Shown here: positions 4,554-18,920 of the stretch, in pieces
Position numbering within the stretch: the stretch's first letter is position 1
Layout of the letters: each line of letters opens with the position of its first letter
Assembly (NCBI RefSeq): GCF_000172155.1
Contig: NZ_ABIZ01000001.1
Span: 5,365,105 to 5,429,104, forward strand
From: Verrucomicrobium spinosum DSM 4136 = JCM 18804
Lineage (GTDB): Bacteria > Verrucomicrobiota > Verrucomicrobiia > Verrucomicrobiales > Verrucomicrobiaceae
Direction of reading: 5' to 3'
Length of the DNA stretch: 64,000 bases
Translations under genes and position numbers: made by a program
The notes under the pieces: model-generated
Databases searched by the model: none
Told to the model about the DNA's origin: nothing
Seen by the model: only the letters and a program-made list of their open reading frames with translations

Positions 4554-6677
4554 TTATCCCTTCACCATCTCGGTAGGCAGCGCCGCCCCTTCCTCCCGCT
4601 TGTCCGACTTGTCCGACTTGTCCAGAAAATGCAAGATCACTGCATAAACTAGGAAAGCCGATTGCAGAGCCCAGAAGCGGTAGAGCCAAGTCCAGACGCC
4701 ATCCGTGAATCCGTACGCATGCAGCCCCACTCCAAGCTGATTGGTGCCAAACCAGGAAAACGCCACGATCATCCCCAAGACGATGTTCGAAGCATGGAAA
4801 CCGACTTCCCGGATATAGCCACCGAGGCGTGCGTGCAGAATGATCAGATTCATGAGCACGATCATGAGCGCTCCGTTCTCCTTGGGATCCCATCCCCAGA
4901 AGCGACCCCATGAGTAGTTGGCCCAGATGCCTCCCAACACCGTGCCCACCAGGGAAAGGAACAGGCCGGCCATTACAAAGGCGTAGGCCATGCGGCTGAT
5001 GTCCTTGGAAGTCTCGTCCTTGTGCTTGGCGATGCCAAAGAGTCGCATCACGAAGTAGATCATCGAAAAGATGGCGGCCACCATGCCAGCTGCGTAGCCG
5101 AGGTTGATACAGGGCACATGTGTGGACAGCCAGAAGTTCGTGATCAACACCGCCTGCAGTTCCTGAAGCGTGTCAGCGCCGTCCATTTCCATGAATCGCA
5201 GGGAGAGGAAGAGTCCAGACATCCCCGCCAGACAGGCCACCGCCAGCCCGAGCCCCTTGGCCCGACGACCAAACCCCTCCATCAGCAGTCCCAGCCAGAC
5301 GGATGAAACCGCGATGAACAAGATGGTCTCATAGAGTGTCGTGATAGGAGGCCGCTCCATGATCAGGCAGCGGACCACAATCCCCGTGGTCCCGTAGCCC
5401 GCGCCAGCAAGCATGAGCAGCCAGCACAGGGCGCGTACAATCCTGCCCCAGAGAGCCTCCGGCGCCACCCAGCTCAATCCCAGCGCAATCGTACCCGCCA
5501 CAAAGAGGATAAGCGCATAGTAAAAGTAGTCCTTCTGGTGGTACTTCAGCTCCATCGCAATGTGACCGCTCTCCCCACGTTCCGCGGCAGATTTCACCAC
5601 ATGATTGTGAAACGCCTCCAGGCTGTTTTTGAACTTGGCCACATCCATCCGGCTCCGGTAAATGTTCTCATATTCAGCCAGCAGCTTGAGTTCATCCGCC
5701 TTGGCCGCGGTTCCTTCGATGGCCGTCTGCAGCACAGAACCCGGCCCGTACCAGATCTCCACCTTTTGGTCGTCAGGCGGAAAGATGCGGAGCACCGTTT
5801 CCGAATTGCCACTCATCAGCGCGCCCAACACAGCGCGAAAATACTCGCGCAGCCAAGGATTGTTCATAGGTGCCGCCGCTTCCGGGTGCGCCTGTAGATG
5901 CGCCTGAATTTTGGGAACCAAGGCTGCGACACTCACTTTCCCACTCTCGCCTGCTGCGAGGATGTCGGTCGGCACCGTGGCGGCCAGACCGCCAAACGGA
6001 TCGCGGGCAAAGTCGAAATGCCCCATGATCATTTCGTAGTCGAGGAAATCCATCGCCAGCTTGCCGAGCGCCCGCTGCACCGGGTTGCGGTTCTTGGAGT
6101 CCACCTCGCGGATCTCCTGCATCTTTTTCATCAGGTTCGACCGGCCTGACACCAGCTCGTTGTAAGAGTAGCGATCCCGCTTGTTCTTGGCTTTAACGCC
6201 GATCTCAATGATCGCATCCGAGTTGTCCACGATGAAGACCCGCAGATCCTTCGCAATGTCCGGGCGGAACCAGGTGAGAGCCAGCCATTCGGTGGCACTC
6301 AATTTGTAGGGCTTGCCCTTGGCATTGAGCAACTCCTTGCCCGTGACCGGATCGGTGAGCGGCTTGCCAGAGGACTTTGCATCCTCCGTCACTGGGATGG
6401 ACTGCCGCCCGCTGAAGCGCAGCAAGCGAAAGCGCGCGATCGTATCCAACGGCTTGATTCGCCCAGACTCCTGGGCCGGCAAGCCAGCCAGCAGAGCAAC
6501 GACTTCCGGGTCCAACACCGTCGCCAGATCCGCCATCTGCGGAGCCGCCGGAAGCTGGACTTTTTCTGCCGGTGCCGGCACAGGCGCTGCGGGCGCAGGC
6601 GCGGGATCTTGCGCCACCAACGCGGTCGCAGGCACCACTGCGGCAAGAAACAGGCTGAGGAAAGAACGAACAATCAT
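4554..6677 (-). CDS. ccsA: Cytochrome c biogenesis protein CcsA/CcsB-type haem handling subunit
   Basis: This 707-residue protein has a signal peptide (1-22), a long periplasmic region (to about 375) and a C-terminal bundle of about eight membrane segments. The haem-handling WWD-like motif is present as WGRFWGWDPKE at residues 590-600, with candidate haem-ligand histidines in nearby segments (WLSTHVPCIN, and the His of HASNIVLGM). CcsA works with ResB in System II maturation: it moves haem across the membrane and attaches it to CXXCH motifs. The start overlaps the stop of resB by ATGA (6674-6677), which shows translational coupling. The fused periplasmic N-terminal half makes the protein longer than the usual 300-400 residues; its role is not known to me. 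Confidence 0.9.
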   Translation of the reverse strand: MIVRSFLSLFLAAVVPATALVAQDPAPAPAAPVPAPAEKVQLPAAPQMADLATVLDPEVVALLAGLPAQESGRIKPLDTIARFRLLRFSGRQSIPVTEDAKSSGKPLTDPVTGKELLNAKGKPYKLSATEWLALTWFRPDIAKDLRVFIVDNSDAIIEIGVKAKNKRDRYSYNELVSGRSNLMKKMQEIREVDSKNRNPVQRALGKLAMDFLDYEMIMGHFDFARDPFGGLAATVPTDILAAGESGKVSVAALVPKIQAHLQAHPEAAAPMNNPWLREYFRAVLGALMSGNSETVLRIFPPDDQKVEIWYGPGSVLQTAIEGTAAKADELKLLAEYENIYRSRMDVAKFKNSLEAFHNHVVKSAAERGESGHIAMELKYHQKDYFYYALILFVAGTIALGLSWVAPEALWGRIVRALCWLLMLAGAGYGTTGIVVRCLIMERPPITTLYETILFIAVSSVWLGLLMEGFGRRAKGLGLAVACLAGMSGLFLSLRFMEMDGADTLQELQAVLITNFWLSTHVPCINLGYAAGMVAAIFSMIYFVMRLFGIAKHKDETSKDISRMAYAFVMAGLFLSLVGTVLGGIWANYSWGRFWGWDPKENGALMIVLMNLIILHARLGGYIREVGFHASNIVLGMIVAFSWFGTNQLGVGLHAYGFTDGVWTWLYRFWALQSAFLVYAVILHFLDKSDKSDKREEGAALPTEMVKG

Positions 6678-7984
6678 GGCGTGGCAGGGTTGGTGGTGCT
6701 GGCGCTGGAGGAGGCCTCCGGCTGGAAAGCTTTGGTGGAACGGGAAGCAGGTTTACGGAGGAAGCGGACCAGTTGGGCAATCATGTGACCAAGCATGCCA
6801 GCCATCGTCGCGAGCATGGCGTAGAGCGGCCAGTGATCAGAGGGGTTGTTCACCACCTGCAGCGTGGAAGACTCCACCATGGCGCCTCCCCGCTCGCCCA
6901 CATCGAATGCCGACTGGAACAAGGCAAACCCCTCATCGCGCAGCGGTTCATTCATGGTGATGATCTTCTTCTCTTCGTTCTCACCGGTGATCTTGGTGAT
7001 CACACTGGTAAACTTGCGCGCGCGCTCCGTACCAGGGTGGACTTCGCGCTGAAAGTCATCCAAGCGCACGGAGAACGGCAGCTTGTAGGTCTTTCTTGTA
7101 AGGGAGATGCCATAGACCTCGTCCCCCACCTTCACAGAGAAGGGGGCAGCCGCGAAGCGCCACAGGATACCTTTCACAGCCTCCCCACCCTTCTTGGGGG
7201 TGACCTTCACATACGCACCGTCAGCATTGCGCTCCTGTTCGAGCTCCTCTTTGAGGGTCTGCAGGAAATATCCGTCCGCCACCTCCCGGCTGGTTGAGGA
7301 ACCTGCCGCCTTTTTGGGGGCAGAGTTCACCTCGTAGTTCATGACCATCAGGTCGAAAGGAAGATCCTTGTTCACGAAAGTGCGGGCCTTGCCACCCGTC
7401 AGATCCTGAAACTGACGTCCGGGAATCACCATCGCCGTCCTCTTCCCATCCTTTGAGACGGGTTCCAGACGCTCGATCTCAATCACCACATCGTGAAAGC
7501 TCTGAAACTCATCCGCCACCTGTCCTTCAGCCAGTCGCACCGCTCCCTCTTTCTTGAAGACGAAGGAGACAAGCCCCGCCACCAGCATGAACACAATGGA
7601 ACCGTGAGTGACGATGACCCCAAACGTGCGGCCTGTCTTGCGAATACGAATGAGCCCCCCAAGGACCATGTTCACGGTCAGGACCGCCATGAGGGTCATG
7701 CCGCCTGGAATCAGCACCGGCAGGTTCCAGTTGCCCTGATAGTGGACGTGCATGGCGCGGAGGCAACAGGCCAGATCCACGCTCGTGATCACAAAGGAAT
7801 CGAAGTACTTCCTCACACTGTCATACAGGCCATGCTCCACCTGTTCCAGAGTCCCAAGGAAGGTGATCAGGAGCAGAAACACCAGCACCACTGTCGCCAG
7901 ACCAAAAGAGGCGAAGAAGTGATAGAGCTTCACGTGGAGCGGCACGGCAGATCGTGGCGGCGGAGTGGGCTTGACGGCAGGCAT
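6674..7984 (-). CDS. resB: Cytochrome c biogenesis protein ResB/Ccs1
   Basis: The 436-residue protein has the ResB layout: three N-terminal membrane segments (about residues 22-45, 90-112 and 122-143), a large periplasmic domain and a last segment near 383-405. The segment ending FKKEGAVRLAEGQ followed by the periplasmic domain is typical. ResB chaperones apocytochrome and forms the haem ligation complex with CcsA, encoded directly downstream with overlapping codons. The 38-residue C-terminal tail is Ser/Ala-rich and likely disordered. Three genes upstream on the same strand is the tri-haem membrane protein, a plausible client. Confidence 0.9.
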   Translation of the reverse strand: MPAVKPTPPPRSAVPLHVKLYHFFASFGLATVVLVFLLLITFLGTLEQVEHGLYDSVRKYFDSFVITSVDLACCLRAMHVHYQGNWNLPVLIPGGMTLMAVLTVNMVLGGLIRIRKTGRTFGVIVTHGSIVFMLVAGLVSFVFKKEGAVRLAEGQVADEFQSFHDVVIEIERLEPVSKDGKRTAMVIPGRQFQDLTGGKARTFVNKDLPFDLMVMNYEVNSAPKKAAGSSTSREVADGYFLQTLKEELEQERNADGAYVKVTPKKGGEAVKGILWRFAAAPFSVKVGDEVYGISLTRKTYKLPFSVRLDDFQREVHPGTERARKFTSVITKITGENEEKKIITMNEPLRDEGFALFQSAFDVGERGGAMVESSTLQVVNNPSDHWPLYAMLATMAGMLGHMIAQLVRFLRKPASRSTKAFQPEASSSASTTNPATP

Positions 7985-8115: not shown

Positions 8116-8823
8116 TTATCGTTTCAGGCTGATGGAGCTCGCAAACTGGTCGAAAGCGGCCTCATTCTTGACAACAAGGTCTTTTGGACCCGTGAGTTTG
8201 ACAAAAAGCGTGAACTCGGGGGCTTCCTGGACCAGCCCGAGCATACGAAAGCCGGTGGCGGCGGCTTCTGCACCCACCCCTTTGAAATCACCATCGAACG
8301 CCACAAAGGTGGCATCCCGACCCACAAAGGTCTTTTTGGGAAGCGCGGCCAGTTCCGCTTCCGAGTAGGGCGGCAGCCCCATTTGGGTCCGCCAGCGATT
8401 GACGTTCGCCGCAAGACCGCCCGCCTGGCCCGGCATGATCGAGAGATAGCACTCCCCTTCCTGATTGGGTCCGAATCTCAGATCGATCAGCCGCATGCCG
8501 CCACCGGATCCCGCAGGTGCCTCCGTCCAGCCTTCCGGAGTGATCCATGCGAGCGGATTCTCAGCGGGTGGCTGTGCTTGTTGGGTGTCGAAGAACCTCT
8601 CGGCACTGGTCGCTTCCGCCTTGGGCATGATGGCATGCTCAGAAATCACACGAGACTCTTTGATCTCCATGCTCTCTGTCAGGCGCTCACAAGAGCTCAG
8701 CAACAGCCCTGCGCTGATCCCCATAGACATCCCCATGCCGGTCAATACCGACCCTCTGGATTGCTGGACATTGCGTCCAGGCTCGCGGCCGGTCACTTTC
8801 GTCATGCTGAAAAAACGGTTCAT
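8116..8823 (-). CDS. Predicted lipoprotein of unknown function
   Basis: The ATG at 8823 is preceded by a good Shine-Dalgarno-like run (GGAAGAAGAGG). An unusually long N-region is followed by the hydrophobic stretch MGISAGLLLSSC, whose LSSC is a lipobox. The mature part (about 190 residues) includes WITPEGWTEAPAGSGGGMR and ends in SISLKR. This resembles a family of PVC proteins that precede cytochrome c maturation genes, but I do not recognise a named domain. It lies 131 bases upstream of resB on the same strand, so a link to cytochrome maturation is possible and unproven. Confidence 0.75.
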   Translation of the reverse strand: MNRFFSMTKVTGREPGRNVQQSRGSVLTGMGMSMGISAGLLLSSCERLTESMEIKESRVISEHAIMPKAEATSAERFFDTQQAQPPAENPLAWITPEGWTEAPAGSGGGMRLIDLRFGPNQEGECYLSIMPGQAGGLAANVNRWRTQMGLPPYSEAELAALPKKTFVGRDATFVAFDGDFKGVGAEAAATGFRMLGLVQEAPEFTLFVKLTGPKDLVVKNEAAFDQFASSISLKR

Positions 8824-9055: not shown

Positions 9056-12000
9056 TCACTTCTTGTTGGCGTCCGCAGCAGGGGCTGGCACCGCTGGCGG
9101 GGCATCAGGCTTCTTCTCCTCAGGTTTTGGCGCAGGAGCGGGAGCGGGTGCAGGCGCTGCATCAGGCTTCTTGACCTCCGCGGGCTTCGCGTCGGCCGGT
9201 TTTGCCGGAGCAGGAGCCGCAGCTGGTGTCTCAGGCTTTTTCGCTTCCGGCTTCTTCTCCTCGGGCTTGGCTGGGGCGGCGGCTGGCTTCGGGGTCTCGG
9301 CAGGTTTCGGCGGCGGTTGGGCGGACTCTATGAGTTTGGCAATTTCAGCCTCGCTCAGCCCCACATTCACAACCAGACCTGGGATTTGAGCCTCCAGCTT
9401 CTTCGCCCCTTCCCGCGTAGCCCCTGTCTGCCAGACGAAGAGCTTCTTCAGGGATTTGGCAGCGGCCAGTTTGGCCAGGCCGGCATCGGTCACCTTGGTA
9501 CCGTAGAGATTGAGGTACTCCAGCTTGCCCAGCTTGGCCAGGTGATCGAGTCCGGCATCCGTGATTGCCGTATTCTCCAGATGCAGGCGCTCCAGGTTGG
9601 TCATCCCCGCCACCATGGCGAGTCCTGAATCCGTCACCTTCGTCCGGGCCAGATCCACCCAGATGAGATGCGGGTTCACAGGAGCCAGCAGCGCCAGCTC
9701 CTTGTCACCGAACTTGTCCGCTGCATTCACCGTACCGAGACGCAGTTGCTCGCTGTCCAGAGACACCGCCATCATGGAGGCATTCAGCGCAGTGACCTTG
9801 GCAGACACTTCAGCAATGATCTTCTTCTCCGCATCTGTCAGGGGCTTGGGCTTCGGTTTCTCGACAACCTTTTTGCCACCGTCAGCTTTGGCAGGCTTGG
9901 CAGCGTAGAGCGCCTTGGCGATCACTTCGATCTCCGGGGTCTTCCTGGCGTTGGCAAAGGTCAGGGATTCACTTGCCCCCTCGGCGATCCACCACTCCAG
10001 GAAGGCCAGCTCTTCCTTGCTGAGCTGCGGCTCATCAGCTGGCGGCATGTGCTCGTCGTCCTCCTTGGGCAGCTTGGCACGCACCAGCAGCAGGCTGTCC
10101 TTGGTGTTGCCAGCGATCACCGTGGTGGCACCATCACTGCCGCCTTTGAGCAGGTCGGAAAATGTGTGCATCTTAAGCTTGCCCTTGCTTTTGTCTGTTC
10201 CGTGGCAGGCGTTGCATTTGGCGGCCAGGATGGGCGCAACCAGTTCGTCGTAAATTTTGGCATTGGGGTCAAGAGCCTTGCCCCCGCCAGCCACAACCTT
10301 TGCGCTTTCAGGCTTGGCCGGAGCAGGAGTTGCAGCCGGAGCAGGCGCAGGCGTTGGCGCAGGAGCTTTCGGCTCCACTTTGGCCACCACAGGGGCAGGA
10401 GCAGCAGCAGGCTTCTTGGCGGAAAGATAAGCATTGGCGAACCCCTCGATCTCTGGAGACTTCTTGGCCGCCGCTAGGGTCAGCGTCTCGCTGGCTCCCT
10501 CCGCCACCCACCATTCCAGAAGTGCCAGCTCCTCTTTGGTGAGCTGGGGCTCATCGCTCGGCGGCATGTGATCGTCATCATCCAGCGGCAGCTTGGCCCG
10601 TACCAGCAACAAGCTCTCCTTGGCATTGCTCGCGATCACCGTCGTGGGACCGTCGCCACCGCCCTTCAGCAGATCCGCAAAGGTGTGCATGCGCAGCTTG
10701 CCTTTGCTCTTCTCCGAGCCGTGGCAGGCATTGCACTTGGCGGCCAGGATCGGGGCCGCGATGTCCGCATAGATTTTAGAGTTGGGGTCAGCCTTCCCTG
10801 CCGGAGCAGCAGCTGGAGCAGGCGCAGCGGGCTTCTCAGGAGCGGGTGCAGGGGCAGGTGCCGCAACCACTTTTGCATTGTCCTTCTCCGTCCAGCCGAT
10901 GTTCACCAGCAAGCCGGGGCGCTTGGCGCGGAAGGCTTCCGCCGCCGGCTCGGTCACTCCCGTCTGCCAGAGGTAGAGCGCCTTGAGCGCTTTCAACCCT
11001 TCCAGATCGCCAAGGATCTTGTCTGTCACTTTCGTACCGTACAGGTTGAGGTACTCCAGCTTCGCCAGCCCCTTCAAACTGGACCCAGCGGCATCCGTCA
11101 CCGCCGTATTTTCCAAATGCAGTTCCTTGAGATTGGTCATTTTGGCCAGAGCAGCCAACCCTGCATCGGTGACCTTGGTGCGAGCCAGATCGAGCGCCAC
11201 CAGAGAGCTACCGATAGACTCCAGCTCCTTGAGATTCGCATCACTGTAGTCACGCGCCACATTGAGCGCTGTGAAGCGCAGCTCCTTGGCATTCTGAGCC
11301 ACTGGTGCCAGGGAAGCCCCGGTACCATTGATCTTCTTCATGGCCTCCGCCACGGCGGGATCCACCCCGCCCGCGCTTGGGGCCTGCGCTGCCGCTTCCG
11401 CCAGGGTCAACATGACCGGCGGCGTACTTCCACCACTGCCACCTTTGGCCTTGGAAAGGAGTGCCTGGAGCGTCGGCTTCAGGTTGTCCGGAACCTGGGC
11501 GTCAGCCACCTTCAGATCCTTGCTGGCACCGGCTTTGACCCAGATCGCCACCAACTCAATTTCTTCGGCGGTCGGCTGATCCTTGTTTTCCGGAGGCATG
11601 TGGTCGTCATGATCCAGCGGCAGCTTCATGCGAGCCACCAGCAGGCTCTTCTCAGGATCGCCCGCCACGACATTGTCGCCACTTTCGCCCCCTTTCAAGA
11701 TGGCCTCATGATTGTCGAGTCGAAGATCGCCTTTGGTCTTGTCGGCATTGTGGCAATTGTTACACTTGGCCTCCATCAGCGGGGCCACCACCGCCGCGTA
11801 GAACGTCGGGCTGCCCGCCGTGTCCACCGTCGCCACGGCCGGAGCCGGGGCAGCAGGACCGCCACCCACTTCTGTCCCATTTGTTTCCGGCACCATGGCT
11901 GGGGCAGGCGTCCCGACCGGAGCGGGCTCGGTGGCCACAGTCTCAGCGGTGACGCGTGTCACCTCAACCTGCGCTGCACTTGGCGCAAAAAAGTCCACCA

Positions 12001-12646
12001 CCTTGGCCTCCACCGTCCGCACCGTGTTGCGCACGTCTTTCGGCGCATACTCCAGCAGGTAGTCGCTGCCATGCACCATGTTGCCGCCAAAGTGCGCGCC
12101 CACGCTCATGATCCCCAGCGTGAGGAAAAGCAACCCCCGATAGACGAACCGGATCCTTCCGCCACTATCTTCGGAGATCTGCTTGAAGATGAGGGCCAAA
12201 AGCGACCCCACCACCGTGGCGATGCCCAGCGCCTGGTGCGCGGCGAACATGCCCCCCTTGTACCCGCCCTCGCGAGAAAGCAGGATGCCGAACACCACCG
12301 CCACAATCGAGCCAAAGGCCCCAAAGCCCATCACAAATCCCACGGACCCCCTGACCGCCTGTCCGAGAGGAAAGCGAAGCATGACCAGAGCTTCCATGAA
12401 GGCGGCCATGATAAGCACCCCAACAGGCAAGTGCACCGCGATGGGATGGAATCGCCCAAAAAACAATGCCCACTCCGGAGTCGGCAGTGCTTTGGCCGCA
12501 TTCGTCACGGGCGGGACAAGCATCATCGAAACGGCAAAGAGCACCACAAGCCCCACGGCACAGATCCAGCCCACCAGCGGACGACGCGGGTTGGATGGGT
12601 TCTCGGGGGATTCACTCTGGCTGAGACTGGCTGCTGAAGCTGGCAT
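9056..12646 (-). CDS. Membrane-anchored multi-haem protein: DUF2231 + three PSCyt-type cytochrome domains + two leucine-rich repeat blocks
   Basis: The 1196-residue protein begins with about five membrane segments including the DUF2231-like signature HPIAVHLPVGVL. Three CXXCH haem motifs follow: CNNCH at 295-299, CNACH at 638-642 and CNACH at 811-815. Each has a downstream DHMPP or EHMPP whose Met is the likely axial ligand. Leucine-rich repeats (LEYLNLYGTKVTD type) occur after the first domain (about 450-590) and after the third (about 955-1105). Pro/Ala linkers separate modules and the last 90 residues are Lys/Pro/Ala-rich. Cytochromes 2 and 3 are close copies, and so are the ends of the two repeat blocks, which shows internal duplication. 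It probably carries electrons or binds partners at the periplasmic face; resB-ccsA lie just downstream. Confidence 0.85.
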   Translation of the reverse strand: MPASAASLSQSESPENPSNPRRPLVGWICAVGLVVLFAVSMMLVPPVTNAAKALPTPEWALFFGRFHPIAVHLPVGVLIMAAFMEALVMLRFPLGQAVRGSVGFVMGFGAFGSIVAVVFGILLSREGGYKGGMFAAHQALGIATVVGSLLALIFKQISEDSGGRIRFVYRGLLFLTLGIMSVGAHFGGNMVHGSDYLLEYAPKDVRNTVRTVEAKVVDFFAPSAAQVEVTRVTAETVATEPAPVGTPAPAMVPETNGTEVGGGPAAPAPAVATVDTAGSPTFYAAVVAPLMEAKCNNCHNADKTKGDLRLDNHEAILKGGESGDNVVAGDPEKSLLVARMKLPLDHDDHMPPENKDQPTAEEIELVAIWVKAGASKDLKVADAQVPDNLKPTLQALLSKAKGGSGGSTPPVMLTLAEAAAQAPSAGGVDPAVAEAMKKINGTGASLAPVAQNAKELRFTALNVARDYSDANLKELESIGSSLVALDLARTKVTDAGLAALAKMTNLKELHLENTAVTDAAGSSLKGLAKLEYLNLYGTKVTDKILGDLEGLKALKALYLWQTGVTEPAAEAFRAKRPGLLVNIGWTEKDNAKVVAAPAPAPAPEKPAAPAPAAAPAGKADPNSKIYADIAAPILAAKCNACHGSEKSKGKLRMHTFADLLKGGGDGPTTVIASNAKESLLLVRAKLPLDDDDHMPPSDEPQLTKEELALLEWWVAEGASETLTLAAAKKSPEIEGFANAYLSAKKPAAAPAPVVAKVEPKAPAPTPAPAPAATPAPAKPESAKVVAGGGKALDPNAKIYDELVAPILAAKCNACHGTDKSKGKLKMHTFSDLLKGGSDGATTVIAGNTKDSLLLVRAKLPKEDDEHMPPADEPQLSKEELAFLEWWIAEGASESLTFANARKTPEIEVIAKALYAAKPAKADGGKKVVEKPKPKPLTDAEKKIIAEVSAKVTALNASMMAVSLDSEQLRLGTVNAADKFGDKELALLAPVNPHLIWVDLARTKVTDSGLAMVAGMTNLERLHLENTAITDAGLDHLAKLGKLEYLNLYGTKVTDAGLAKLAAAKSLKKLFVWQTGATREGAKKLEAQIPGLVVNVGLSEAEIAKLIESAQPPPKPAETPKPAAAPAKPEEKKPEAKKPETPAAAPAPAKPADAKPAEVKKPDAAPAPAPAPAPKPEEKKPDAPPAVPAPAADANKK

Positions 12647-12831
12647 GTTGAGAAGGTCGGGATGACGTTATCGTGTTCCTACGTAAGTCCAAAACGAACG
12701 GCACAGCCGGGATAAATCAATTCCAGTATAAATTCATGGCAATCTCCGGCCCTGCAAAAAGAAGTGACAGAAGTGGATGTCACAAACCACCCGGCGTTAC
12801 GCCATCGGGCATTTTTTGCTCAGAATCAGTC

Positions 12832-14325
12832 CTATCCGGCGAAGTAGCCCCCGTTAAGGTCGTCGGCCAGATGCAAGGCGGTGAATCCCAGCCAGATCAC
12901 CAGGAACCCTGCGATGAGCAGTTTCTCCAGTGAGAAGGTCCGTCCTGCCAGTCGCACTGGCATGTCCTTCAGCAGCCCATGCACCACCGCCATGCAGAAC
13001 AACAGCGGCACCAGCGAGATGGAATTCACCAGTCGCGGCCCCACCTTGAGGGTGGTGAACCACCCGAACAGGTAGCAGAACGCCGTCATGAGTCCCGCCA
13101 CATAGAGCAACTCCCACTTCCACTTCAGCAGTCCTAGAGACGCCTGCTCCCAGTTCACCGCCATCGCCATCAGCATGAGAGCCCCCCAGAGCAGCAGCAT
13201 GACAAAGAACGGCGGATACTCAGCCAGCGCGTTGTTGAACATCATCACCACCCCGCGCTCCACCCGCCGCTCGATGCTCTCCAGCGAGTGCTCCCGGAAG
13301 TACTTCCTGGCACTCGGCAGTTCATCCGGGTTGTCCACTTTCCCATCCCCATCCTTGTCCACACTCTCCAGAGACCGGTCCAGCCCCATTCCCTGCATGT
13401 CGTGCTTGTCGTCCACATCGGTCGCCCACATGTAGTACATGCTCTGCACGTTGTAGAGCGGATTGCCGAAGGTCTTGTACGAGGTGTAGAGGTACGGGGA
13501 GATCGGCACCATGTAGCCCAACACCATCACAGGTCCGGCGATGAGGATGGCGATCCGGCGTTTATTGCCGGCAAAGATGAGCTGCAGGCCCATAACGCCG
13601 CCCGCCGCAGCGAGCGCCACCAGGGCATTGGCCTTGCTCATGTGCCAGGCACACAGGAAAAATCCCGCGATCAGGGCATGCCACCACTTCGGGTCCTGAA
13701 GGGTTCGCACGATCCAGGCTACCGCCACCACGATGAGGGTCGCCACCAGCACCTCAGGCTGCACATAGGGTGCTTTCAGGATGAACAGCTGAAAGGCCAC
13801 AATCAGACAGAAGGCCAGCCCCATCCAGTTCCCCAGCCAATGCCGCAAGGCAAAAAACAACCCCACCAAGAGCACAACGGAGAGGCCAATGTTAAAGGCC
13901 CGCGCCACGGGGAAGTATTCGTTGTAGAATTTCTTCAACCCTTCCGGATCCTGAGGGCGCAGGGTGGAATCTGCCGTGGTTGAAAGCAGGTACATGAAGA
14001 GCGGCATTCGCATACGGGTGATGAACATCTCGTAGTTCGACTCCCGGAGCCCCTTCCCGTAGTTCATGTACACCCGCTGATCATTCAGGTCGTACGCGTT
14101 CACTGGCCGGTTGGCCTTTGCGGCCGCGGCCTCATCGCCGTTGAAACGATCCTTGACCTCCGTGTCCATGGTCCGCTGCAACTTCACGTTGACCTCGTAG
14201 CCATGTTTCACAGCCCTCTCCACATAGAACCAGCCCGCGCCCACCAGCACCAACAGAATCAAGCCAGTCGCCCAACGGGGAAGTTTGGCACCAGGGGCAA
14301 AGGCATCGAGCAGGGCGGAAAACAT
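12832..14325 (-). CDS. Multi-pass membrane protein, GT-C / PMT-like glycosyltransferase candidate
   Basis: The 497-residue protein has a first membrane segment at about residues 14-33 and about nine more after residue 130. A periplasmic first loop contains conserved-looking acidic and Tyr residues (VNAYDLNDQRVYMNYGKGL). This is the GT-C layout used by enzymes that take sugars from lipid-linked donors. A calcium-binding-type loop DKDGDGKVDNPDE sits at residues 323-335 in an extramembrane loop. The ATG at 14325 is chosen; the frame stays open 86 codons further upstream but that stretch has no protein-like features. The catalytic identity is inferred from topology only. Confidence 0.65.
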   Translation of the reverse strand: MFSALLDAFAPGAKLPRWATGLILLVLVGAGWFYVERAVKHGYEVNVKLQRTMDTEVKDRFNGDEAAAAKANRPVNAYDLNDQRVYMNYGKGLRESNYEMFITRMRMPLFMYLLSTTADSTLRPQDPEGLKKFYNEYFPVARAFNIGLSVVLLVGLFFALRHWLGNWMGLAFCLIVAFQLFILKAPYVQPEVLVATLIVVAVAWIVRTLQDPKWWHALIAGFFLCAWHMSKANALVALAAAGGVMGLQLIFAGNKRRIAILIAGPVMVLGYMVPISPYLYTSYKTFGNPLYNVQSMYYMWATDVDDKHDMQGMGLDRSLESVDKDGDGKVDNPDELPSARKYFREHSLESIERRVERGVVMMFNNALAEYPPFFVMLLLWGALMLMAMAVNWEQASLGLLKWKWELLYVAGLMTAFCYLFGWFTTLKVGPRLVNSISLVPLLFCMAVVHGLLKDMPVRLAGRTFSLEKLLIAGFLVIWLGFTALHLADDLNGGYFAG

Positions 14326-14730
14326 GGGAGACGGGCGTGAAGAATCGGGAAAAGCAGGCGCATTAGAGGCGGATTGCGGGAAAGGGCAAGGGGGAGGACA
14401 AAATTGAACCGTGTTTTCATGCTCCTCGATGGCGCAATCGCCATTCCCAAGCACATGGGACCCGGGGATGGGAGCTGCCGCCCCACTTGGCAGCACGTTC
14501 AAGCCCGTGGACGCCGCCTCCGACACCCGCAACTGGAAAGAAGGCGACTCCTGACAGCTCGTCGACTGGGCCCACGTCACCATACGGGGCCGTCACCGGC
14601 ACCTTCGCCGCTTATGGCCCCCCACTCTGGCCACAGGTCTCGAGTGGGACATCAGTCTCCTCGTCCAGACCGGGGGCATCTCCGTGGTCGCCAACCACCC
14701 TGCCGCAGCCGCCTCAACCAGCGCAGCGTC
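14326..14730. other. 405-base gap without a supported gene
   Basis: The stretch lies between two minus-strand genes. Plus-strand frames give short protein-like pieces (for example one ending AAAASTSAASQRAT before a stop at 14744) but none has a start, ribosome site and continuous frame. It may hold the promoter of the membrane protein and decayed sequence. Confidence 0.4.
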
Positions 14731-17319
14731 TCAACGCGCCACTTGAGGCACATCTCCGCCCCCCTTCCCCTCCGGTGCCGCGTCCCATTCTGCGACATCA
14801 TGAAAGGTTGGCGCATCGAACCCACTGCTCAGCCCATCCTTCACAAAAAGGCTGTCCAGTTCTGGATGATCTTCCGGGCGTTGCAACCGGAGTTTCAAGG
14901 TCTGCCCCAGTTGCAGCTTCTGGGCTGGGAGGGGGTGCGCGCCCATCCAGCTCCAGTGGGAGACCACGATCTGATCCCCGGGTTTCACCCCAAGGTCACC
15001 CACCCCTTCCACCACCTCCGTCACTTCATAGAGGTGATTGACGAGAGCCTCAGTATAGGGCTGAAACTCCTGCAACGTGGGCGTGGGAGACATCTCCGTC
15101 AACTTCGCCCAAACGACGCCCTCCTTCACGGGAAGACGCTGTCCCGACATCACGATGGACGAATTGGCATGCTGGGCCACCTCCTCGTCCCTCAACTTGC
15201 GATTGTAGATCAGCACCCGTTCGATCTCGCCACGCCAGGCTTGCTTGCCCTCTGATGAGGCACCCAGACGCATCTTCATGGACTCCCAGTTGCTGAAGTC
15301 GCCCGTGATGCGGTTTCTAGTCCAGGCCACCTGCCCGTCCACATACACGGTCAGTTTATCCTTGCCGTAGGCCAGGACGAGGTGGTGGGGGTATCCCTTC
15401 TGCACCACCGCCAGGGAGGTCTCCTCCACATCCCCCGCCGGGCCGTTGGCCGGGGTCCTCATCCAGAGAAATAGGCGCGGCCCACGCTGGATGATCGTGA
15501 GATTGCGCTCCTGGTCATTGTTTGCCAGCGTCAGGATGCGCCGGTCCTCCTTCTCCTTCACGTTGCCCTGGGGCGTGATCACCATTTCCAAGCTCACCTC
15601 ATGAGTCTTGCGGCATTCCGAAGAAACCAGCTCACCGGCATCCGGCGCATCAAACCAGCCGCCACGCAATTTCATCGCCCCCCGCTGATCCCAGAAGGCC
15701 ACCCCTTGAGGCACCACGGTGCAGGGGTTCCCATTGGGCAGCTTCGTCAGCCCCCGCACCTGTTCCCACACAAAAACAAGCCCTTCATCGGTGGCCGGCC
15801 AGGCAGCCTTGGGCACACGAAGGGCCGTCGCCGCCATCCGGTTGGGATGTTGCGCCCGGTCCTTGAAGCCCTCGATCACCAGTGCCTCTGCATCTTTCGA
15901 CTGCTCCGGAAGCTTCACGGAAAGGGAAAGATCCCCCTCACTCAGTTTCCAGCCATTCAGCACGGTGCCATCCGCCAGCTTGACGATGGCCTCCCTGCTG
16001 TCAACAGGCTCGTCGAAATCCACCACAATGCCATCCTTGCCCTCACGCCGGGCGCCTTCCACCTTGGGCGGAGCAGGGGGGCTCACATGCACGTAGCCAC
16101 GCAACTTTCTCCCATCCGGAAGCTGTCGGGCTTCAATCCAGTATTCACCCGGTTTTTTGAACGTGTGCTGCACCTTGTCCCCTTCATAGTTCACCTTGCC
16201 GGTCATGTGCCAGCCCCATGGCCCCTTCCCCACATCCTTCACCGCAAAGTCCAAGGTAGTTTCCCCTTCCACATACCGGGTGCCCAGGGGCAGCTCTGTC
16301 CGGTACACGTCGGGATAACGGTCCGTTCCCTTGAAACTGGTATAACGTACAGGGTTGCCAATGATCTCCAGTGTCACCGGGTTCAGGTGGGCGAGGTACA
16401 GATCGTAGTCCGCCTCGAAGTGGTCATGGCTGTCCGGGGAGGCAGCGAACGCGATGAGCCGTTGACACGGAGAAACCATGGGAAAGTAGATGTAATTCCG
16501 CTTTCCGTGCAGGCGCTCGTCGTCCTTCTGCAGGATCTGGCCGATCTCGCGCGTGGCCAGACGCATCTTGTTCACAGGTCCGCCGGCCCCTCCCATCCAA
16601 AACCCCCACTTGCTGTCGGCGGTGAAGTAGGGCTGACAGCCGCTCTGCCTCTGTTCATGCCAGAGGGTCTGGGCCTCCGTATCCACCCTTGCAAATTCTG
16701 GCGTGCCGGAGGTGGCATGCCTCCCGTCTGGACTCATCAGGTAACCAAACACCTCACTGGGCTGCTTGAGCAGGCGGGTCGTCTGCCCCGTGCTCAAGCT
16801 GAACTCCTGGGTAAATCCCTTGTTGTCGATAAAGCACAGCCGGTCCTCCCCCCTCCAAACCACGGCACGGTGCTCCGCATAGCTGCGAGCTTCCGCAGCC
16901 ACCACTCGGCGTTTGCGGCTTTTCAGGTCCATCACCCACAGCACTCCGTACCGCCCCACATGCCCAGGGTAGCCTGTGGACCCCCGCGGATAGCTCAGGT
17001 AGGCCAAGCGCCTGCCGTCGGGGGAAATTTTGGGGCAGAAGTGATCCCGCCCAGACTCAGTCGGCACCAGACGGCGTTCCTTGCCGCCGTTGATGCGCTT
17101 CGACCAGATCTCCCAAGCTCCCGACTTCGTGCGGCGCTCCCACACCAGAAATCCGGACCCCACGCGGGACAACCCCATCATCTTCTTTTGGTCCAGATCC
17201 AGGGGCACCTCTTCAGCACGAACGTCTTTTTCACGGTTCCGCCTCCATTCCACCACGGCAATGGCTGCCGCCGTAATCACTACAAAAACAGGAACATAGA
17301 TCTTCCAAAAGCGCGACAT
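14731..17319 (-). CDS. Membrane-anchored TolB-like beta-propeller protein with C-terminal LamG-like domain
   Basis: The 862-residue protein has an N-terminal signal anchor (residues 7-25, VPVFVVITAAAIAVVEW). A TolB/WD40-like propeller follows, with repeated blades such as FCPKISPDGRRLAYLSYPRG and YLMSPDGRHATSG. A middle part contains GEYWIEARQLPDGRKLRGYV. Residues of about 560-700 resemble a LamG/concanavalin fold (LVLAYGKDKLTVYVDGQVAW, then GEIERVLIYNRKLRDEEV). Such proteins bind glycans or proteins at the outer face. It precedes the GT-C-like gene on the same strand with a 405-base gap. No enzymatic motif was found, so binding is the safer guess. Confidence 0.7.
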   Translation of the reverse strand: MSRFWKIYVPVFVVITAAAIAVVEWRRNREKDVRAEEVPLDLDQKKMMGLSRVGSGFLVWERRTKSGAWEIWSKRINGGKERRLVPTESGRDHFCPKISPDGRRLAYLSYPRGSTGYPGHVGRYGVLWVMDLKSRKRRVVAAEARSYAEHRAVVWRGEDRLCFIDNKGFTQEFSLSTGQTTRLLKQPSEVFGYLMSPDGRHATSGTPEFARVDTEAQTLWHEQRQSGCQPYFTADSKWGFWMGGAGGPVNKMRLATREIGQILQKDDERLHGKRNYIYFPMVSPCQRLIAFAASPDSHDHFEADYDLYLAHLNPVTLEIIGNPVRYTSFKGTDRYPDVYRTELPLGTRYVEGETTLDFAVKDVGKGPWGWHMTGKVNYEGDKVQHTFKKPGEYWIEARQLPDGRKLRGYVHVSPPAPPKVEGARREGKDGIVVDFDEPVDSREAIVKLADGTVLNGWKLSEGDLSLSVKLPEQSKDAEALVIEGFKDRAQHPNRMAATALRVPKAAWPATDEGLVFVWEQVRGLTKLPNGNPCTVVPQGVAFWDQRGAMKLRGGWFDAPDAGELVSSECRKTHEVSLEMVITPQGNVKEKEDRRILTLANNDQERNLTIIQRGPRLFLWMRTPANGPAGDVEETSLAVVQKGYPHHLVLAYGKDKLTVYVDGQVAWTRNRITGDFSNWESMKMRLGASSEGKQAWRGEIERVLIYNRKLRDEEVAQHANSSIVMSGQRLPVKEGVVWAKLTEMSPTPTLQEFQPYTEALVNHLYEVTEVVEGVGDLGVKPGDQIVVSHWSWMGAHPLPAQKLQLGQTLKLRLQRPEDHPELDSLFVKDGLSSGFDAPTFHDVAEWDAAPEGKGGGDVPQVAR

Positions 17320-17492: not shown

Positions 17493-18920
17493 ATGTTGAC
17501 CAAAACACCCGTCTCACTGCACTGGTTTCGCCGCGACCTGCGACTCACAGACAACACTGCCCTACACGCCGCTCAGACGGCTTCCACTCAGGTGATCCCC
17601 TTTTACGTCCTCAGCAGTTGGAAGAAGGCGCACGCCTGGACAGGCCCCAATCGCCAGCATTTTTTGTGCGGCAATCTGGAGTCTTTGGCCAAGAATCTGG
17701 AGGCAATCGGTTCCCGTCTCATCATCCGGTCTGGAGAGACGGTGTCAGAAATCGAGCGGTTGATTCGCGAGACGGGGGCCACCGCGCTCTATACAAACCG
17801 TGATCCCGATCCCTATGGGCAGACGATCGAGACCCATGTGATCGCTCTTTGCAACAAGCTCGGCGTGGCGTTTCATACCTGCAAAGACGCCGTGCTCCAC
17901 CAGCCACAGGAGGTGCTCACTGGCAATGGCGGCCCCTACCGGGTCTTCACTCCTTATTCCAAAAACTGGTTGTCGCTTCCCAAAGCCCAGCCTCTCAGCA
18001 AGGTACGCACCCTGGGAGACGCACCCTCGCCGAAGATCAAGAGCCTCCCCCTCCCCACAGTGGTTCACTGGCACCTGCCAGAGCCGACCGCCACCCTGCC
18101 CACCCCCGGCGAAAAAGCCGCTCGCGACCGGATGAAGACGTTTGTGGACAGCGTCAGGCTCCCCCGGTACGAGGAAACGCGAAACTTCCCTTCCGTGCCC
18201 GGCACCTCGCAGCTCAGTCCGGACTTGCGATACGGCCTGATCAGCATCCGGGAGCTCTATCATCGCTGTCAGCAGGCGCTGGCCCAGGCGGGCGGACAGC
18301 CGGCGGCACAGTCAGGCATCAACACTTATATCAAAGAACTGGCCTGGCGGGAATTTTACATGGCTGTTCTCCACTTCTACCCGGAGGTGCTGGAGACCGA
18401 CTTCAACCCAGACCTCCGCGGCGTTTCCTGGCACCAAGATCCCGCCGGTCTCGCAGCGTGGAAAGAAGGCCGCACAGGCTTTCCGCTGGTGGATGCCGGC
18501 ATGCGCCAGCTTCTCGCCACCGGCTGGATGCACAACCGTGTGCGTATGATTGTTTCCATGTTCCTCACCAAGGATCTTCATGTGCACTGGATGGAGGGTG
18601 AGAGCCACTTTATGCAACTCCTGGTGGACGGGGAGATCGCCAGCAACAATGGCGGGTGGCAGTGGAGCGCAGGCACCGGTGCCGACGCCGCGCCGTGGTT
18701 CCGCATCCAGAATCCCTGGACCCAGACCAAACGCTACGATCCCGAGGGCAAGTACATCAAGACCTGGGTGCCGGAGTTGAAAGACGTCCCGGCGGAGATG
18801 TTCTTTGCACCGCCCACGAATGGCCTGCCTCTGGCCAAAGGATACCCCCTTCCGATAGTCGATCACGCCACAGAACGGGATCGCACGCTGCAACGGTTCA
18901 AGGTGGCAACGAAGCGATAA
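17493..18920 (+). CDS. phr: Deoxyribodipyrimidine photo-lyase (class I cryptochrome/photolyase family)
   Basis: The 475-residue protein has the normal length and both domains: an N-terminal antenna-binding Rossmann domain opening with LHWFRRDLRLTDNTAL, and the FAD-binding helical domain. The FAD-site signature NNGGWQWSAGTGADAAPWFR falls near residues 384-404, followed by NPWTQTKRYDPEGKYI. It uses blue light to split cyclobutane pyrimidine dimers in DNA. It is divergent from the propeller gene, with 173 bases between them. No SOS-type operator was recognised. Confidence 0.95.
   Translation: MLTKTPVSLHWFRRDLRLTDNTALHAAQTASTQVIPFYVLSSWKKAHAWTGPNRQHFLCGNLESLAKNLEAIGSRLIIRSGETVSEIERLIRETGATALYTNRDPDPYGQTIETHVIALCNKLGVAFHTCKDAVLHQPQEVLTGNGGPYRVFTPYSKNWLSLPKAQPLSKVRTLGDAPSPKIKSLPLPTVVHWHLPEPTATLPTPGEKAARDRMKTFVDSVRLPRYEETRNFPSVPGTSQLSPDLRYGLISIRELYHRCQQALAQAGGQPAAQSGINTYIKELAWREFYMAVLHFYPEVLETDFNPDLRGVSWHQDPAGLAAWKEGRTGFPLVDAGMRQLLATGWMHNRVRMIVSMFLTKDLHVHWMEGESHFMQLLVDGEIASNNGGWQWSAGTGADAAPWFRIQNPWTQTKRYDPEGKYIKTWVPELKDVPAEMFFAPPTNGLPLAKGYPLPIVDHATERDRTLQRFKVATKR

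Follow-up and report, generated by a model that had tools for sequence, protein, structure and literature searches.

A membrane protein of alternating cytochrome and leucine-rich repeat modules in Verrucomicrobium spinosum, the most elaborate member seen of a graded series and a candidate electron hub

Few families of unknown function have expanded as much in Verrucomicrobia and Planctomycetes as those of the PSCyt, PSD1 and DUF1501 proteins. Their PSD/PSCyt architectures in Verrucomicrobia have been described with a suspected carbohydrate role, their function being unknown, in an architecture text that names no combination with LRRs or DUF2231 (PMC5615132). Membrane-bound periplasmic sugar oxidation is exemplified by LacABC, the lactose 3-dehydrogenase (PMC9007349). 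The closest relatives by composition are DUF2231-PSCyt1-LRR proteins annotated simply as "c-type cytochrome domain-containing protein" (WP_268076618.1 of Catenovulum, and loci in Algoriphagus and Pseudozobellia), in which the three domain types follow one another as in the protein described here. In the literature searched we found no description of DUF2231-cytochrome-LRR proteins and no LRR combined with a planctomycete cytochrome, DUF2231 being mentioned there only in passing.

The genome of Verrucomicrobium spinosum forms one contig (8.22 Mb); of its named relatives, Verrucomicrobium sp. BvORR106 and BvORR034 are the closest. We analysed a stretch of 64,000 nucleotides, here called the window, to which all coordinates refer unless a locus label is given. 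Domain borders were set by profile HMMs built in this analysis, and Pfam matches were judged against curated cut-offs. Architectures are abbreviated with D for DUF2231, H for a PSCyt1 haem domain and L for an LRR block; L followed by a number is the locus label of a relative. The coordinates of the initial annotation are correct, and to these we add the strand: the gene reads from 12646 down to 9056. Its features and those of its neighbours are:

9056–12646, minus strand: whole gene, 1196 aa, D-H-L-H-H-L (open reading frame, Pfam and our own HMMs)
12038–12463, minus: DUF2231 four-helix membrane domain, residues 62–203 (Pfam, HMM, model)
11522–11800, minus: haem domain 1 (PSCyt1), residues 283–375, CNNCH at 295, MPP
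10904–11248, minus: LRR block 1, residues 467–581 (Pfam, HMM, structure model)
10490–10771, minus: haem domain 2, residues 626–719, CNACH at 638, tandem duplicate of haem domain 3
9971–10252, minus: haem domain 3, residues 799–892, CNACH at 811
9368–9715, minus: LRR block 2, residues 978–1093, concave face and Trp1072 conserved
9059–9349, minus: Pro/Ala/Lys-rich tail, 58% P+A, 17 K
8116–8823, minus: next gene, predicted lipoprotein of 235 aa without a Pfam family, its start at 8823 placed by comparison with relatives
6674–7984, minus: ResB, system II cytochrome c biogenesis, sole copy in the genome
4554–6677, minus: CcsB/Cytochrom_C_asm, system II cytochrome c biogenesis, overlapping the ResB gene by 4 nt
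12764–12783, minus: terminator-like hairpin and T run between the gene and its upstream neighbour, a consensus match only

The order of domains, from a DUF2231 part with four transmembrane helices through haem 1, LRR1, haem 2, haem 3 and LRR2 to the tail, is as first annotated, and all profile matches exceed their cut-offs: PSCyt1 (PF07635) strongly and in three copies, with 129 bits against 22, LRR_4 and LRR_8 likewise above theirs, and DUF2231 (PF09990) barely, with 26.8 bits against 26.4, the model giving it four transmembrane helices. A Pfam search of the 1196-aa protein found neither PSCyt2 nor PSD1 domains, nor was homology to ResB, CcsA/B, ResA or CcdA found in it, such genes being its neighbours. 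On the plus strand, an antisense open frame of 689 aa covers 10568–12637, and opposing long frames occur also in L020 (718 aa) and L021 (793 aa); the frame in the window is probably a shadow of GC content and codon bias.

The CxxCH motifs, at residues 295, 638 and 811, are each accompanied by a distal Met ligand, and the pair is kept in all 111 haem domains of the family, 110 with MPP and one with MPT. On these sequence grounds we infer that the three PSCyt1 domains load haem. The closest solved match of haem domain 1 is FoxE (PDB 5mab), both by sequence (E 3e-7) and by fold (Z 10.6 over 93 residues, rmsd 2.6). AlphaFold2, given DUF2231 and haem 1 with 52 aligned sequences, returned a confident four-helix bundle that is joined by a linker without structure to a cytochrome c fold, at a mean pLDDT of 84.8. 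The Pro/Ala-rich linkers between haem domains are at least 70 residues long, or an LRR block intervenes. A compact multihaem wire is thus unsupported, with linkers of 70 residues or more and domains that do not pack in the model. The long flexible linkers and the absence of predicted packing would also suit a haem-based redox or gas sensor, or a scaffold tethering enzymes near the membrane, that takes no part in catalytic electron transport; but every haem domain keeps the His/Met-type ligands typical of electron carriers, and haem number seems to have risen at least twice independently (see below), which better suits relay capacity, so that we give this idea very little weight.

The LRR calls of the initial annotation persist: the profile matches lie above cut-off, and a structure model of the L1-H2-H3-L2 segment gives the alternating strand/helix units expected of them. 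Both blocks are regular repeats of ≈ 24 residues per unit at a pLDDT of about 90, the haem folds lie at about 80–88, and Foldseek matches the model to LRR proteins; interdomain placement is not predicted (pTM 0.37). Across the family the concave face of the LRRs is more conserved than the convex one (mean entropy 2.11 vs. 2.91 bits, Mann–Whitney p = 5e-5). It is by this concave face, to judge from its conservation, that the LRRs would bind periplasmic partners.

The protein was first read as a product of module duplication, and this is borne out. Haems 2 and 3 are near copies, as claimed, at 79% identity; the other modules are 51% (H1/H2), 45% (H1/H3) and 56% (L1/L2, 64/115) identical. The repeated ends of the LRR blocks are also present as quoted, LEYLNLYGTKVTD occurring twice exactly and LYLWQTGVT in one block answering LFVWQTGAT in the other. 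Module alignments score 225–414, whereas the maxima for shuffled copies are 8–13, so the likeness is far from chance, and a chance or compositional artefact is ruled out.

Relatives with different numbers of modules, which the initial annotation had suggested seeking, were found and form a graded series: H-L, D-H, D-H-L, D-H-H-L, D-H-L-H-L, a two-gene form D-H + L-H-(H-)L, and D-H-L-H-H-L. The D-H-L form occurs in Bacteroidetes, Planctomycetes and Akkermansiaceae, D-H-H-L in L015, and D-H-L-H-L in L012 and L092–L095. The two-gene split takes the form D-H + L-H-L in Prosthecobacter and relatives and D-H + L-H-H-L in L089–L091, with a stop/start overlap in L089 and L090. D-H-L-H-H-L is found in the window protein, L009 and L010, and the myxobacterium L065 has D-H-H-H. 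The window protein is the most elaborate member seen of this series and not a unique chimaera. The idea of a one-off assembly fails because single-module DUF2231-haem-LRR proteins exist in several phyla, and a unique chimaera or misassembly is ruled out by the identical architecture in two sister genomes together with the graded relatives. The V. spinosum genome itself holds a soluble paralogue, an H-L gene of 347 aa with a single module (L115 6409–7449, minus strand; also L002) that adjoins an NfeD-family gene. It had been taken as degraded, with stops inside, but is intact, the stops lying beyond the gene end.

The trees place haem 1 with the haem of D-H genes and put haems 2 and 3 together in another group; L1 and L2 are likewise kept apart. 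Such a pattern agrees with a haem-LRR unit duplicated once at the base of the window protein's family, although the deep forks are modestly supported, followed by tandem duplication of the haem. This tandem duplication appears to have arisen at least twice, a result that gene conversion could mimic. A single ancestral haem 2/3 duplication that includes the L091 lineage is rejected when the leading haem of the pair in L091 is constrained to group with that of Verrucomicrobium (AU p = 0.0017), whereas an origin shared with L011, L089 and L090 is not rejected (AU p = 0.42).

The membrane domain carries a conserved set of histidines. His67, 72, 137 and 192 (numbering of the window protein) are invariant in 52 DUF2231-haem proteins of several phyla, and His185 is present in 51 of the 52. 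In the model all five gather where the predicted helices lead into the cytochrome domain, at one end of the bundle, and for this reason probably on the periplasmic side. Because the conserved cluster would lie at the periplasmic face, DUF2231 may hold a cofactor or quinone site; a cofactor or metal at the His site may plausibly be present. No natural protein among solved structures matched the membrane bundle significantly in a structural search: cytochrome b561 scores Z 10.4 and cytochrome b6 Z 10.8, de novo bundles 12–14. One D-only relative matches Cytochrom_B561 below cut-off (E 0.002). The His pairs at both membrane faces that mark the b561 type, with its two haems across the membrane, were not found, the conserved His lying at one end only, with which a single-face haem is compatible.

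Haem-less DUF2231 proteins were also seen (L110 2215–3021 and L112 2317–3204, both minus strand, and L113), two of which carry a YHS domain in the same chain and lie next to CusA-like RND genes; one haem-less protein adjoins a YHS/HMBD P-type ATPase. These contexts suggest a metal role for DUF2231. Four D-only proteins without haem keep His67, 72, 137 and 185 and have Trp or Tyr at 192. DUF2231 might accordingly be a copper or iron site in a protein for membrane metal or redox handling, whose cytochromes would re-oxidise or reduce the bound metal, as four of its five His are kept also in haem-less proteins near RND metal-efflux or YHS/HMBD P-type ATPase genes. However, His192, present in 52/52 haem-linked proteins, is missing from those in metal contexts, so the site differs; moreover, the haem-linked family is partnered by PSD1 and DUF1501 rather than by metal genes, and we consider a metal-handling protein improbable.

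At its own locus the gene leads the only ResB/CcsB locus of the genome, as it does in Verrucomicrobiaceae, where, as in some Akkermansiaceae, it heads the order lipoprotein-ResB-CcsB (ResB in 25 loci, CcsB in 20). The lipoprotein family (8116–8823) recurs between the gene and ResB, and is worth naming. Upstream on the minus strand lie a LamG/PD40-like protein and a multi-TM protein with a weak DUF6057 match (14731–17319 and 12832–14583), and in Prosthecobacter-type relatives the neighbour that reads divergently is a photolyase gene like the open frame at 17493–18920 (plus strand). The gene order in Verrucomicrobiaceae is consistent with a role in cytochrome c. The protein could work with the lipoprotein, ResB and CcsB in cytochrome c maturation, as a redox partner, a haem reservoir or a platform presenting apocytochromes to the sole maturation machine: the order is conserved in Verrucomicrobiaceae and some Akkermansiaceae, ResB is single in the genome, and the same genome offers dozens of PSCyt1 clients. 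We nevertheless think maturation unlikely to be its role, since PSD1 and DUF1501, not ResB, adjoin the protein in Bacteroidetes, Planctomycetes and Catenovulum, and since controls show ResB/CcsB to be general, with a range far wider than that of this protein family.

The association with PSD1 is seen at two levels. As neighbours, the order PSCyt1-PSCyt2-PSD1, DUF1501, (unknown), D-H-L recurs in Bacteroidetes and Planctomycetes, where gene clusters c3 and c4 are each found in 19 loci. Catenovulum adriaticum, a gammaproteobacterium, has PSD1 and DUF1501 beside D-H-L on two megaplasmids (L116, L117), all three domains being confirmed, so that the PSD1-DUF1501-D-H-L cassette appears to have been transferred to Gammaproteobacteria as a unit; one of the two sits in a GH43/GH115/GH98 glycan-degradation island. 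One D-H protein without LRR adjoins the other planctomycete cytochrome system, PSD2-5/PSCyt3 with DUF1552, and another D-H protein is near a GFO/IDH/MocA oxidoreductase gene.

At the genome level, PSD1 accompanies D-H(-L) in 47 of 48 cases; only the D-H-H-H myxobacterium lacks it. The order was represented by 144 genomes: 108 with both, 2 with D-H only, 10 with PSD1 only and 24 with neither (Fisher p = 3e-17, kinship ignored); PSD1 is thus found in 108/110 genomes with D-H vs. 10/34 without it, and the ten PSD1 genomes without detected D-H are mostly fragmented assemblies. In a phylum sample of 96 genomes, three have D-H in a long open frame, and it is these three that show PSD1 expansions; four others have a short D-H frame and no PSD1 expansion at that threshold. 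A MAG labelled Akkermansia muciniphila (L030, L049) carries D-H and PSD1 genes, both of which are missing from the sampled group g12 (probably Akkermansia); the label of that MAG is probably wrong.

In V. spinosum itself about 48 PSD1 loci stand against one DUF2231 protein found, and no PSD1 gene adjoins the 1196-aa gene: the link is genome-wide here, and adjacency is found only in other lineages. The number of modules does not simply follow that of PSD1 copies, as single-module Akkermansiaceae relatives have many PSD1 copies; extra modules are therefore not required for many partners, a single D-H-L being present in many-PSD1 genomes (L031, L032, L034).

The best reading, to which we give even odds, is a membrane-tethered electron hub that docks periplasmic PSCyt/PSD1-DUF1501 enzymes via its LRRs. 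The DUF2231 bundle would anchor the protein in the inner membrane, facing the periplasm, and may itself hold a cofactor or quinone site. Electrons would pass to or from the membrane through three PSCyt1 domains, each with one haem and held on flexible Pro/Ala linkers, and the two LRR blocks, judging by their conservation, would dock periplasmic partners on the concave face. The partners would most likely be pairs of PSCyt1-PSCyt2-PSD1 (DUF1549/DUF1553) and DUF1501 enzymes, which adjoin the single-module form in other phyla, and multiplication of modules would give each anchor additional sites for docking and relay. The initial annotation had spoken of an electron-carrying binding scaffold; the conserved concave face, the intact axial ligands and the periplasmic cytochrome enzymes as partners fit this, the binding and the haem loading within it being our deduction. 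A bolder extension, which we hold only tentatively, is that DUF2231 is an unrecognised quinone-linked module bearing a cofactor (haem b or metal), and that DUF2231-haem-LRR proteins are a general membrane electron port for periplasmic PSD1/DUF1501 enzymes, one hub serving about 48 enzymes in V. spinosum through LRR docking and repeated gain of haem.

A membrane partner that is present once and whose haem and docking parts are defined offers a direct genetic and biochemical handle on the PSCyt, PSD1 and DUF1501 families. If the hub reading is true, deleting this one gene could cut off the electron path for dozens of paralogous enzymes, and the protein would be an unusual case of LRRs fused to cytochromes in which haem number changed repeatedly via tandem duplication.

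Comparison with known systems places the protein as follows. With LacABC it shares a working principle only, the enzyme families being different. FoxE matches haem domain 1 alone, with no membrane domain or LRR matched. The PSCyt1/PSCyt2/PSD1 proteins with DUF1501 partners have the PSCyt1 domain and genome neighbourhoods in common with the window protein, but lack DUF2231 and LRRs, whereas the window protein lacks PSCyt2 and any PSD domain. Like the multihaem cytochromes MtrC and OmcA it carries several haem sites per chain; unlike them, it has each in a domain of its own, set apart by linkers of at least 70 residues or by an LRR block. The single-module DUF2231-PSCyt1-LRR proteins share with it the LRR end motif (WQT in many), the invariant His and CxxCH, and differ in having one haem and one LRR block in ≈ 450–600 aa, compared with the three haems and two LRR blocks of the window protein.
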